Both the position numbers and the translations under genes were made by a program. Positions 28,894 through 37,239 of a stretch of DNA of 50,103 bases are shown here, piece after piece. The notes beneath the pieces were generated by a model, which saw only the letters and a list, made by a program, of their open reading frames with translations, was not told the DNA's origin and searched no databases. The DNA is from Desulfobacula sp. (GTDB lineage Bacteria > Desulfobacterota > Desulfobacteria > Desulfobacterales > Desulfobacteraceae): NCBI GenBank assembly GCA_021647625.1, contig JAKIUJ010000003.1, positions 1-50,103 on the forward strand, read 5' to 3'. Position 1 is the first letter of the stretch, and every line of letters begins with the position of its first letter.

Positions 28894-29220
28894 ATGGCAG
28901 AAAATATAATTGAAATAGAAGATGATACTTTTGAGCAAATCGTTCTCAAATCAGATAAACCGGTAATGGTAGATTTCTGGGCTCCCTGGTGTGGCCCCTG
29001 CAAAGCGATCGCCCCCACTGTGGAAGCCCTTGAGAAAGAATTTGGTGATAAAATGACCTTTACAAAAGTCAACGTGGATGAAAATCCCATCACCCCCAGC
29101 AAATACGGTGTACAAGCCATTCCTACCTTAATTTTCTTTAAAAATGGGGAAATTGCCGATCAAATCACCGGAATGGTTGCAAAAGAGAAACTTGAAGAAA
29201 CCATCAAAGGGGTATTGTAA
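28894..29220 (+). CDS. trxA: Thioredoxin
   Basis: 108 aa, standard size. Active site WAPWCGPCKAIAP near residues 30-38; the cis-Pro loop AIPTLIFFKNGE is present. Known role: general disulfide reductase, electron donor for ribonucleotide reductase, MsrA/B and others. Followed after 14 bases by trxB, then bamD, on the same strand. Its own leader carries the terminator at 28747-28794, so its promoter should lie in about 28795-28870. Confidence 0.96.
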   Translation: MAENIIEIEDDTFEQIVLKSDKPVMVDFWAPWCGPCKAIAPTVEALEKEFGDKMTFTKVNVDENPITPSKYGVQAIPTLIFFKNGEIADQITGMVAKEKLEETIKGVL

Positions 29221-29234
29221 GGGAGAATAAGAAA

Positions 29235-30155
29235 ATGGCAGCAGTGGACTATGACCTTGTCATTATCGGTGCAGGGCCTGCCGGATTAACCGCAGGCATA
29301 TATGCAGCCCGGGCAAGAATGAATGTTCTTCTCTTGGAAAAAGCAGTTCCGGGCGGTCAGGTCCTGGTAACAGACTGGGTTGAAAACTATCCGGGATTTC
29401 CTGAAGGTATTTCAGGGTATGATCTTGCTGAAAAAATGAGAGTGCAGGCAGTGGATCTGGGATTAAAAATAGACACATCCGAAGTCCATTCACTCAATAT
29501 TTCAAAAGACTCAAAAGAAATTGTACTAAAAGATAAAAGCATCTTTACCAAGGCATTGATAATTACATCCGGTGCCTCCCCGAACACCCTTCATGTTGGT
29601 GAGGATAAATTTGTCGGTAAAGGCGTTTCCTATTGCGGTACCTGCGACGGACCTTTTTTCAAAGAAAAAACAGTTGTTGCTGTTGGGGGTGGTGATACTG
29701 CTGTGCAGGAAGCCCTCTTTCTAACCAAATTTGCAAAAAAAGTATATCTGGTTCACCGAAGAGACGAACTTAGGGCAACGAAGATACTTCAGGAACGCGC
29801 CCTTGGCAATGACAAGATAGAACCCGTCTGGGACAGCATTGTAACCGGATTGGATGGTTTTTTTGGATTGGAGGGAGTTAAGGTAAAAAATGTAAAAACC
29901 AATGAAGAAAAGACCATAAAAGCAGATGGCTGCTTCATCTGGATAGGCATTCTTCCAAATACCTCATTTTTAAATGACTCGGTTAAAACCGATGAATACG
30001 GGTTTATCTGTGTGGATGAAACCATGCAGACATCTGTTTCCGGCGTTTATGCCGCCGGCGATGTTCGAGATACCCCCTTAAGACAGATTGCAACCGCAGT
30101 TGGAGATGCCGCCATAGCCACCCTTTCCGCAGAACATTTCATTGAGAACAATTAA
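29235..30155 (+). CDS. trxB: Thioredoxin reductase (NADPH-type)
   Basis: 306 aa. FAD-binding VIIGAGPAGLTAGIYAAR at the start, redox-active CGTC (about 135-138, where many TrxB have CATC), NADPH-binding VAVGGGDTAVQEA and the HRR(D) phosphate-binding motif, and the C-terminal VYAAGDVRD. Known role: reduces thioredoxin with NADPH; partner of trxA just upstream. The HRR motif supports NADPH rather than a ferredoxin-type enzyme. Confidence 0.95.
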   Translation: MAAVDYDLVIIGAGPAGLTAGIYAARARMNVLLLEKAVPGGQVLVTDWVENYPGFPEGISGYDLAEKMRVQAVDLGLKIDTSEVHSLNISKDSKEIVLKDKSIFTKALIITSGASPNTLHVGEDKFVGKGVSYCGTCDGPFFKEKTVVAVGGGDTAVQEALFLTKFAKKVYLVHRRDELRATKILQERALGNDKIEPVWDSIVTGLDGFFGLEGVKVKNVKTNEEKTIKADGCFIWIGILPNTSFLNDSVKTDEYGFICVDETMQTSVSGVYAAGDVRDTPLRQIATAVGDAAIATLSAEHFIENN

Positions 30156-33250: not shown

Positions 33251-33493
33251 ATGAGAGGCAAATTGAGACCTTCAAAAAAAATCAATAATCCGAAAGAATT
33301 AGGGCAACATCTCCTTGAAGAGCGTAAACGTCTCCAACTGACTCAAAAAGAGATTTCTGAGTTTAGTGATGTTGGCAGAAAATTTATTATAGAGATTGAA
33401 AAAGGTAAAGTAACGGCTCAGCTTGGGAAAGTATTTGAATTGTTGAACAGCCTTGGTCTTGAACTCCATATCATTAAACGTGGAGATAGTTGA
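33251..33493 (+). CDS. hipB: HipB-like antitoxin (XRE family)
   Basis: 80 aa. ELGQHLLEERKRLQLTQKEISEFSDVGRKFIIEIEKGK is an XRE helix-turn-helix (about residues 16-56); the tail LNSLGLELHIIKRG resembles the HipB beta-lobe that contacts partner and DNA. Known role: antitoxin and autorepressor. The stop overlaps the start of the HipA gene by four bases. Regulated probably by the three upstream palindromes. Confidence 0.88.
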   Translation: MRGKLRPSKKINNPKELGQHLLEERKRLQLTQKEISEFSDVGRKFIIEIEKGKVTAQLGKVFELLNSLGLELHIIKRGDS

Positions 33494-34755
33494 TTTTGGA
33501 AACCTTGAATGTTTTTTTTGAACAAACCAGAGTCGGTTCCTTGAGTATTAATGACAGGAGACTTTTTTTATTCCAATATTCTAAGGAATGGTTGGCATCA
33601 CCTGATGCTTTTCAAATATCTATTTCTTTGCCGATGCAGGAAGGTGTTATCTCAAATGACAAGGTAAAATCATTTTTTTCCAATCTATTACCTGAATCTG
33701 CCGTTAGAATATTAATAGCGAAACAACTTGGGATTTCAGATAAAAATGATTTTATGCTTCTCAAACGTATTGGGGGAGAGTGTGCCGGAGCAATAACAAT
33801 TCTACCTGAAGCAGAAATACCTGAATCACCGAATCAATACAAATATCGTCTTCTATCAGACGAGCAATTGGCAGATTTTATAAAGAATATCCCCAGAAGA
33901 CCTTTGCTTGCAGGTCAGAAAGGTATCCGAATATCACTTGCAGGGGCACAGGAAAAGCTGGCACTTTTCTACAACGACCCTTCATTTTATATCCCAGAAA
34001 ATGGTGCACCAAGTAACTTTATTTTAAAACCGAATATGGCGCATTTTCAGTTTTCCATTGAGAATGAATGCTTTTGTATGATGCTTGCCAATGCAGTTGG
34101 TTTGGCTGTCCCACCTGTTATGATTGCTCGAAAAGAAGATCAAAAGGTTCTATTAATTAAAAGATATGATAGAATATTGGATAATGATATTCTCAAACGT
34201 CTTCACCAGGAAGATTTTTGTCAGGCCATGGGGCTCTCACATGAACTGAAATATCAGGCTGATGGTGGCCCTGGTCTGAAAGCATGCTTTGATCTGGTTC
34301 GATCATACTCTGCGAATCCGATTAAAGATTTTCAACAACTGATGCAATGGGTATTTTTTAATTACTTGATTGGGAATATGGATGGCCATGCAAAAAACTT
34401 GTCTTTTATATATCAGGCCAGACAGATTCGCTTGGCACCTTTTTATGACATGTTGTGTACGGACATATATGATGACCTGTCACAAAAACTTGCTATGAAG
34501 ATAGGTGGGGAGAACAGATCCGAATGGATAATGGAAAGACACTGGAAAGGATTTGCAGAGGAGATAAAAGTAAGTCATCCGATTCTCAAGAAAAGATTAT
34601 TGGATTTTTGCCTTAAAGTGGCCAGTAAAATTGACAATACATATGCGGACTTTATAAACAGATATCAACAAAACAGTCTGTTAGAAGATATCACAGCTGC
34701 GATAAAGAAAAGATCGACTATAATGCTTAAACAATTCAATTCAACAAAAAAATGA
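33490..34755 (+). CDS. hipA: HipA-like serine/threonine kinase toxin
   Basis: 421 aa, the full length of HipA. TTG at 33490 overlaps the hipB stop; TTG 33496 gives METLNVFFEQ and is also possible. ISLAGAQEKLAL is the P-loop/autophosphorylation region, NYLIGNMDGHAKNLSF the catalytic loop, and APFYDMLCTD the metal-binding DxD-like region. Known role: in E. coli HipA phosphorylates glutamyl-tRNA synthetase and produces persistence; targets of other HipA proteins differ. The gene looks intact. Sits at the left end of an accessory region. Confidence 0.92.
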   Translation: MILETLNVFFEQTRVGSLSINDRRLFLFQYSKEWLASPDAFQISISLPMQEGVISNDKVKSFFSNLLPESAVRILIAKQLGISDKNDFMLLKRIGGECAGAITILPEAEIPESPNQYKYRLLSDEQLADFIKNIPRRPLLAGQKGIRISLAGAQEKLALFYNDPSFYIPENGAPSNFILKPNMAHFQFSIENECFCMMLANAVGLAVPPVMIARKEDQKVLLIKRYDRILDNDILKRLHQEDFCQAMGLSHELKYQADGGPGLKACFDLVRSYSANPIKDFQQLMQWVFFNYLIGNMDGHAKNLSFIYQARQIRLAPFYDMLCTDIYDDLSQKLAMKIGGENRSEWIMERHWKGFAEEIKVSHPILKKRLLDFCLKVASKIDNTYADFINRYQQNSLLEDITAAIKKRSTIMLKQFNSTKK

Positions 34756-35221: not shown

Positions 35222-35872
35222 CTATCCCATATACCTCTCAACCATTTTCGCCAATGCGTCATAGGGTTGGGCACCCACCAGCCTGTCAAGTCCCATAAAA
35301 AAGGTGGGAACAGCATTCACCCCTTTTGCCCGGGACAATTCCCAGTCGGCATCCACAGCATCGGAAAATGTTCGTTTTTCGATGACGTGTTGGCCCTGAT
35401 CTTTATCCAGCCCGGATCGCTCAATCAACGCCAGCAAAACATCTGTCCGGGCTATATTTTTTCCATCCACAAAATAGGCTTTAAAGGCTTCCATATGAAA
35501 GGCGTGGCCTTTATCTTTTGATTCAGCCCAAAGCCCGACTTCCTGTGCAAGTCGGCTGTTATAGGTCATCCGCCGATCACCCAGCGCAAGCCCCAGTTTT
35601 CGGGCTGTTTTTTTCAGCTGGGCCATGATCTGATCCACATCAACCAGCATCCCTTTTTTCTTGAACAGATCGTCCAGAGAAAAACCCTGCTTTGGTGTAT
35701 CCGGATGGAGCGGAAATGCCCGCCATTTTACCTTGATATCATATTTTTCTTCTAATTTTTCAATACTCCCGGTAATGAAATAGCACCAGGGTCAAACATA
35801 GTCTGAGAAGATTTCAAGCGTGCATTTACGAGGCTTTGAGCCTTTACTCTCGATCATTTCCAAGTTATCCAT
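35222..35872 (-). CDS. DsbA/FrnE-family oxidoreductase, probable selenoprotein (U-P-W-C)
   Basis: 216 aa if the in-frame TGA at 35792-35794 (codon 27) is read as selenocysteine. The frame starts at ATG 35872 and continues without other stops to 35222. The TGA lies in SDYV-x-PWCYF, where homologues have Cys-Pro-x-Cys, so it replaces the first redox cysteine (U-P-W-C). Then WRAFPLHPDTPKQGFSLDDL, and the cis-Pro loop NAVPTFFMG near the end, as in DsbA/FrnE. Directly after the TGA, CCC(U)GGU and ACCGGG can form a 6-bp stem with an 11-base loop, a possible bacterial SECIS. A nonsense mutation is the alternative. The part from 35650 alone lacks the active site. Confidence 0.72.
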
Positions 35873-35915
35873 TTTTAGCTCCAATTTACCGATTTTTACC
35901 TAATTTTTTGCCAAT

Positions 35916-36412: not shown

Positions 36413-36796
36413 TCAATTTTCAATTCGAAATTTTTGTATCTTAATTTCAGGCAAATGCTTGTAGTGCTTTTCGTTTCCTGTAATTAGTGGGAGTTGCCTT
36501 GTCACAGCACATGCCCCAATCAGTGCATCAGCAAGCTCCATTGAATGACTTAATGCATATTGTTCAATGAAGAACATTGCTTTTGTAGAAATTTGTTCAT
36601 CAACTTGAATGACTTGGGCTTTAAGAACTCCCAGTGCTTTTTTAAATGCATTGAGTTCTTTTTTGTTTCTTACTCCCTGAATAATCTCTATGTATGTCAC
36701 TACAGATATACTAAATCTATCAAAACTATGAACCAAATTGATCGCATTCTGGTAACCTCTTGAATACCAGACTAATACATCGGTGTCGATAATCAA
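36413..36796 (-). CDS. VapC-like PIN-domain toxin
   Basis: 127 aa. MIIDTDVLVW supplies the first acidic residue, YIEIIQG the second, ELADALIGACA the third, and PLITGNEKHY the last block of a PIN nuclease active site. Known role: tRNA or rRNA cleavage, blocked by its antitoxin. Its start overlaps the antitoxin stop by four bases, the usual TA arrangement. Target is unknown. Confidence 0.85.
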   Translation of the reverse strand: MIIDTDVLVWYSRGYQNAINLVHSFDRFSISVVTYIEIIQGVRNKKELNAFKKALGVLKAQVIQVDEQISTKAMFFIEQYALSHSMELADALIGACAVTRQLPLITGNEKHYKHLPEIKIQKFRIEN

Positions 36797-37029
36797 AATG
36801 TTCTCCTCTTTCTAAGTTTGCGAACATAGGTTTCGACATCTTCCATATCTGTCCGATCTTTCCACATTCCACAGAATTCATTATTTTTATCCATTTGCTT
36901 AGATTCAGAAATAGGCACAATTCTAGCGTAAGGTTTTCCGTGAAAGGTTATGACCACTTCCTCTCCTCTTACCGCTGCATCTAATATTTCTTTTGTATGG
37001 AACCTGAGATCTTTGCTGGTTGCTTGCAT
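36793..37029 (-). CDS. VapB-like antitoxin (Phd/YefM type)
   Basis: 78 aa from ATG 37029, which has GAGGAG; a longer upstream start has no site. SKDLRFHTKEILDAAVRGEEVVITFHGKPYARIVP is the Phd/YefM DNA-binding fold, followed by an acidic and basic tail that should bind the toxin. Known role: neutralises the PIN toxin and represses the operon. Partner gene overlaps directly downstream. Confidence 0.85.
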   Translation of the reverse strand: MQATSKDLRFHTKEILDAAVRGEEVVITFHGKPYARIVPISESKQMDKNNEFCGMWKDRTDMEDVETYVRKLRKRRTF

Positions 37030-37043
37030 TGTTGACTCCTCAT

Positions 37044-37073
37044 AAAAGTTTATATAAATAAGTATGAACTTTT
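37044..37073 (-). promoter_or_regulatory. Inverted repeat upstream of the vapBC-like pair
   Basis: AAAAGTT (37044-37050) and AACTTTT (37067-37073) surround an AT-rich 16-base centre, just before the antitoxin start. A likely antitoxin-binding site. Confidence 0.5.
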
Positions 37074-37239
37074 GTTTTTTGTTTGTCAAGGAAAGTTTGC
37101 ATGAAGTATGGAATCAAGTGCAGAGAACGTTTGGGTAACTGGCAGCAAGTTTATACCACCTGCTTTCATTTTAAAATAATTATTTCAAATTTTATACGTG
37201 AATTATACAACCTTATTCTTTATTTATTTCACGAGAAAT

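Follow-up and report, generated by a model that had tools for sequence, protein, structure and literature searches.

Does the in-frame TGA in a gene for a DsbA-like protein of Desulfobacula sp. encode selenocysteine (Sec), or does it simply end the frame? The window, the whole analysed stretch of 50,103 nucleotides (contig JAKIUJ010000003.1, positions 1 to 50,103 of the forward strand), carries this gene on its minus strand at 35222..35872. On sequence comparison, this is very probably a selenoprotein gene, whose product belongs to the FrnE-like branch of the DsbA fold and probably resides in the cytoplasm.

The reading frame and its TGA codon

Direct translation of the minus-strand frame, from the ATG at 35872 to the stop TAG at 35224-35222, gives 216 aa with a sole interior stop, the TGA of codon 27 (35792..35794, minus strand). 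With the TGA read as U, the context is ...EIFSDYV-U-PWCYFITG..., and both this translation and the alignments with relatives make codon 27 the predicted Sec that opens a UPWC motif, Sec27-Pro-Trp-Cys30. The TGC of codon 30 (35783..35785, minus strand) supplies the second residue of the redox pair, and the translated protein has no Cys or Sec other than Cys17, Sec27 and Cys30. The Pfam DSBA match (E 1.3e-34) runs across the TGA, from residue 18 to residue 210. The initial annotation had described an intact frame with TGA replacing the first Cys of a CPWC motif, and these 216 codons bear it out.

The start also stands as the initial annotation had placed it, at 35872 and not at an internal ATG near 35650. 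A GGAG six bases upstream of the ATG (35879..35882, minus strand, read directly from the sequence) is the probable ribosome-binding site. Similar N-terminal extensions are present in three aligned relatives (L002, L009 and L042) and therefore favour the long start. The protein thus very probably comprises 216 aa from 35872.

The table 11 listing offers for this frame just a 142-aa ORF from 35650 (35222..35650, minus strand), a shortened call without the active site. Taking the TGA as a stop thus loses the active site and leaves a 142-aa remnant, and the genes of the relatives are presumably cut likewise wherever their TGA is so taken. That the TGA truly ends the frame and a separate 142-aa protein begins at the internal ATG is very improbable. 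The table 11 ORF in frame is what speaks for it, but such a protein would have neither the active site nor the domain's first third, and the codons before 27 and those from 27 to 74 are conserved as protein across the relatives.

The TGA is widely kept. A first homologue search over 58 genomes, the source genome included, matched 33 genomes in 40 rows at E 0.001. Codon 27 is spanned by 37 of the 40 rows, and 35 of these 37, the window counted, have TGA there. The two others (L043, G002:C372; L153, G048:C59) have TGC and are distant, with 24-25% identity in the alignments. The three rows short of codon 27 are a match in G015 that lies at a contig end and starts with residue 80, one in G029 from residue 77 with the active-site part absent (L030), and the second piece in G047.

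A second scan took the best 80 of 311 loci from named genomes, which are partly shared with the 58-genome set, and TGA is at codon 27 in all 80 of these best loci. The cultured strain Desulfospira joergensenii DSM 10085 carries the gene too (L082). A third sample took 297 genomes of the phylum and gave matches at 1e-10 in 68 of them. Among its full-length matches of at least 40% identity, the window counted, one TGA is listed for 39 of 40, the exception (G093) having TGC. The weaker full-length matches (n=26) are divided into 14 with TGA and 12 without, and four more rows are fragments. The position of the TGA was verified in this sample in the fetched rows only, 20 regions with 19 alignable at the codon, of which 14 have TGA and 5 have Cys (L131-L135). 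The initial annotation had suggested looking for Cys or Sec at this position in homologues, and both are found there, TGA in the proportions above and Cys in the homologues that align at it.

In a tree of 65 rows, rooted at the midpoint purely for display, the Cys row L131 adjoins a Sec row (support 95/92) within a branch of 51 Sec rows and 1 Cys row. This placement would fit a Sec-to-Cys change, although the L131 branch is long (1.09). Six rows of 27-35% identity (L041, L136-L140) form a deeper branch that reads U-P-F-C, with the TGA kept and the hairpin in the same register. The Cys forms L132, L133 and L134 are the tree neighbours of that deeper branch. A plasmid search matched only 3 Vibrio records, at ~30% identity.

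The protein changes little past the TGA. Comparing every pair among 12 sequences (L001 is one of them) gives median pN/pS values of 0.042/0.385 ahead of the TGA, 0.034/0.158 over codons +1 to +12 and 0.167/0.606 starting with codon +13, where pS is near saturation since many of the pairs are distant. Two close pairs give dN/dS past the TGA of 0.019/0.246 and 0.044/0.229. In conserved amino-acid columns of 92 sequences, codons +1 to +12 (9 columns) have a synonymous codon entropy of 0.45 bits vs 1.50 bits elsewhere (64 columns; Mann-Whitney p 2.4e-5). This difference marks an RNA constraint in exactly that stretch.

These patterns bear on whether the gene is a pseudogene, in which an ordinary nonsense mutation would leave at most a short fragment as product. 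In favour of this, table 11 reads TGA as a stop, the adjoining ArgP/LysR-like gene is broken, and copies in two relatives look decayed. One of the two, L042, is a second copy in G018 that reaches a stop after about 106 residues, and its remainder was not found beyond this stop in G018, which has an intact copy as well (L010). The other, L045 in G047, consists of two pieces only. Against a pseudogene, the TGA is kept in 35/37 rows and in 80/80 of the best 80 of 311 loci, non-synonymous change past it is small and a hairpin constrains synonymous sites. A nonsense mutation would not persist across families, so a pseudogene is highly unlikely and a Sec codon is the preferred reading.

Hairpins past the TGA

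With the U of UGA counted as 1, covariation, recoding and folds point to a probable bacterial SECIS hairpin at +15 to +37 (35758..35780, minus strand). Its stem joins bases 15-23 to bases 29-37 and includes a core of +17-23/+29-35 with a U.U mismatch at +20/+32. The small apical loop, CGGGA, contains G, in keeping with the bacterial SECIS criterion given in PMC1088965.

The stem covaries among relatives. In a first set of 33 distinct sequences, four of its pairs are altered on both sides. Of 500 shuffles, none reach its covariation score and 1 reaches its count of pairs with two-sided change, while 120 equal or exceed it in further pair types. When the 3′ arm is slid, the paired share drops from 84.8% to 54.5% or less, and a slide by -3 gives an equal covariation score (0.076 vs 0.074).

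In a large set of 128 TGA rows, 103 of them distinct and with relatedness and shared genomes not removed, the compensatory changes recur. Pair 19-33 is A-U in 88 sequences and G-C in 15, pair 21-31 is U-A in 88, C-G in 12, A-U in 1 and unpaired in 2, and pair 23-29 is C-G in 95, A-U in 6 and unpaired in 2. Position 20-32 is U.U in 78 and U.C in 1, and it becomes G-U, G-C, U-G or A-U in 24. The outer pairs are looser, 16-36 being broken in 18/103 and 15-37 in 53/103.

The Cys homologues serve as the counterpart. Core pairing is 87.5% in the TGA rows vs 47.6% in six Cys homologues. When codons are replaced synonymously, 200 times per row, the TGA rows have 6.13 of the 7 core pairs observed vs 3.67 recoded, higher in 103/103, whereas the Cys homologues have 3.33 observed vs 3.78 recoded, higher in 1/6. 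Moreover, in 16 divergent TGA rows the seven core pairs each hold in 13 to 16 of the 16.

The window's own fold energy is less telling. Its 65 bases from the TGA on fold no better than shuffles (z -0.34), and the 25-base core alone gives z -1.24. A folding check, proposed in the initial annotation, thus comes out divided: relatives reveal a SECIS-like hairpin with compensatory changes, and it is by comparing them that the SECIS criterion applies, while the energy of the window's own fold is insufficient alone. Two distant TGA homologues (L146 and L147) have a different and very stable stem after the UGA, of 8 pairs with a 4-base loop at -16.3 kcal/mol.

The lowest-energy fold of the stretch after the TGA is another hairpin, +3-11/+21-30, in which even the A of the UGA is base-paired. 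It surpasses its own shuffles and, in the close relatives, is paired in 97.0% of cells vs 84.8% for the SECIS stem. Against synonymous recoding it has 8.60 of 9 pairs vs 5.92, higher in 102/103 TGA rows, and it is not above recoding in the six Cys homologues. These above-chance scores are partly explained by its 5′ arm, nearly all dictated by codons: the Pro-Trp-Cys codons set it except for one third position.

The 16 divergent TGA rows separate the two hairpins. The paired share there is 88.4% for the SECIS core vs 81.9% for +3-11/+21-30, whose pairs 4-29, 5-27 and 6-26 hold in 10, 10 and 7 rows. We therefore rejected this upstream hairpin as the SECIS, because three of its pairs are each lost in 6 to 9 of the 16 rows and its 5′ arm is almost wholly fixed by codons. 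It is probably a by-product, and the +15 to +37 hairpin, the best SECIS fit by these comparisons, is the probable working element. The initial annotation had noted a possible stem directly after the TGA; that stem is the lowest-energy fold and is conserved, but the likely SECIS lies further downstream. The two mutually exclusive hairpins could also act together as a small RNA switch, the first masking the UGA and the SECIS forming once the ribosome has opened that first hairpin, though we consider this improbable.

Selenocysteine machinery and gene neighbourhood

The source genome has most of the machinery. A search found selB above the cut-off (G000:C78) and tRNA-Sec (selC; G000:C145, 76.4 bits), which ARAGORN also calls tRNA-SeC. 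Two selD copies are above the cut-off, at G000:C46 (L039) and G000:C207 (L038). Both have an in-frame TGA after Cys-Gly, a position that we take to be the usual Sec place in selD, with stems in about the same place after the TGA.

No match to selA was found in the source genome, a draft of 332 contigs and 92.86% completeness. It is present in 56 of the 57 other genomes, the one without it (G031) being 70% complete. In two relatives (L046 and L047), selA sits between ilvN-like and TPR-like genes, named by eye, whose best matches in the source genome have 40% and 24% identity, respectively. Since 56/57 genomes have selA and its neighbours also seem absent here, an assembly gap is likely. Of the Sec machinery named in the initial annotation, selB, tRNA-Sec and selD are in place and speak for a selenoprotein, whereas the lack of a selA match in this draft counts against one.

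The machinery bears also on whether a tRNA that is near-cognate or reassigned decodes the TGA as Cys or Trp instead of Sec. Distant homologues do have Cys at position 27, which would suit such decoding. However, the genome encodes tRNA-Sec, selB and selD, and the TGA rows preserve the hairpin while the Cys rows do not, so we regard a different amino acid at the TGA as extremely unlikely. Sec is thus favoured by the conserved TGA, the Cys homologues aligned at it, the covarying hairpin and the selB, tRNA-Sec and selD genes, in support of the probable selenoprotein that the initial annotation proposed.

Directly downstream of the selenoprotein gene is a remnant of an ArgP/LysR-type regulator (named by eye; 35189 to ~34860, minus strand), truncated and with its frame interrupted where nine C follow one another (35030-35022). 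Its first 53 residues have a match in 6/80 loci, among the best 80 of 311 named-genome loci. Toxin-antitoxin-like pairs lie on both flanks, at 33251-34755 (plus strand) and 36413-37089 (minus strand), with HTH and HipA on one side and PIN and Phd/YefM on the other. Further off on the plus strand are a thioredoxin gene (28894-29220), recognized by its CGPC motif, and then a thioredoxin-reductase-like gene (29235-30155; PF07992).

A LysE-type exporter (PF01810 in L003) is in the flanks of 13 of the best 80 of 311 named-genome loci, upstream and on the opposite strand in 12 of these 13. It is also near 10/50 loci of the other genome set, some of the 50 missing the selenoprotein gene, and no match to it was found in the window. 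No gene cluster around the selenoprotein occurs in more than 13/80 loci, among the same best 80 of 311, and therefore we draw no function from the neighbourhood.

Protein family, likely reaction and known systems

The AlphaFold2 model, built with 22 sequences, has a mean pLDDT of 93.4. Position 27 immediately precedes the first helix (28-32). Pro189 immediately precedes the strand 190-193, a place where thioredoxin folds presumably carry the cis-proline. The first five Foldseek matches are all FrnE structures of Deinococcus radiodurans, with TM 0.85-0.87 on the query, and a profile search gives an FrnE match at 6e-38. These results support FrnE as a closer relative than periplasmic DsbA. The initial annotation's DsbA/FrnE-like identity is thereby kept as to the DSBA fold and refined towards FrnE.

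The only NCBIfam model found for the protein, NF041057 (Rcas_1661 family thioredoxin-like (seleno)lipoprotein), was rejected at 36.1 bits, far below its curated cut-off of 190. The similarity to it is distant and limited to residues 141-213.

The best reading of the protein is an FrnE-like thiol/disulfide oxidoreductase using Sec27 and Cys30, whose substrate and partner we infer. SelB and Sec-tRNA would read the UGA when the +15 to +37 hairpin is met. Sec27, located at the first helix's tip, would then act as the nucleophile, and may open a disulfide or form a selenenylsulfide with Cys30. The selenenylsulfide would be re-reduced by a thiol system, for example, by thioredoxin and the thioredoxin-reductase-like protein, possible partners or electron donors whose genes (28894-30155) lie 5 to 6 kb off. 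The likely role in an anaerobe would be cytoplasmic disulfide reduction or reshuffling.

FrnE of D. radiodurans (5cp1, 5cnw and others) has the same fold over 209 alignment columns, with TM 0.85, rmsd 2.0 and 26% identity. Its CP(W/F)C motif appears here as U-P-W-C, with Sec for the first Cys. It is predicted cytoplasmic, and so is the window protein, whose N-terminus by eye is charged and has no hydrophobic stretch. FrnE is described in PMC8945050 as a cytoplasmic disulfide reductase of the DsbA family, the loss of which raises the sensitivity to cadmium and diamide. Unlike D. radiodurans FrnE, the window protein is missing the C-terminal CX4C, as it has no Cys beyond residue 30. We therefore call it FrnE-like and not FrnE proper, although the CX4C is absent from some FrnE proteins too, according to that paper (PMC8945050).

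The published record places the gene within a known kind. COG2761, we presume, is the FrnE group. Sec-containing DsbA-like proteins with UxxC, of which the initial annotation also spoke, have been reported since 2005, when 9 sequences from the Sargasso Sea were placed under COG2761 (PMC1088965). In the table of that paper, Cys forms are widespread and Sec forms are 0 in the other set, its column read as completely sequenced genomes (PMC1088965), whereas the relatives here of at least 40% identity are nearly all Sec forms (39/40 in the phylum sample). A 2006 table of selenoproteins in bacterial genomes has DsbA-like entries for Anaeromyxobacter dehalogenans, Desulfovibrio desulfuricans and Desulfotomaculum reducens (PMC1794560). 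Its columns, inferred from the totals of 15 and 33, give for DsbA-like no Sec-to-Cys and one Cys-to-Sec event, and the abstract speaks of few Sec-to-Cys changes, mostly in FdhA and SelD (PMC1794560).

Later surveys add the families DsbA 1, DsbA 2 and DsbA 3 in the GOS set (PMC2398784), of which DsbA 1 is among the closest known entries, and a list from 2026 names a 'DsbA-like protein form 1' (PMC13188914). A dual code expansion with 34 putative selenoproteins is reported in Desulfobacula relatives (PMC8318568), and the word DsbA is absent from the main text of that paper. A search of titles and abstract openings found no paper on a Sec FrnE in this group.

Judged by their published descriptions, the Sec DsbA-like entries (COG2761/PF01323, UxxC) share with the window protein the DSBA domain, Sec as the first residue of the redox motif and a downstream bacterial SECIS. 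They share also the marine and deltaproteobacterial occurrence. Sec DsbA-like proteins are already a published kind, and the window gene is a well-supported new example of it rather than a new principle.
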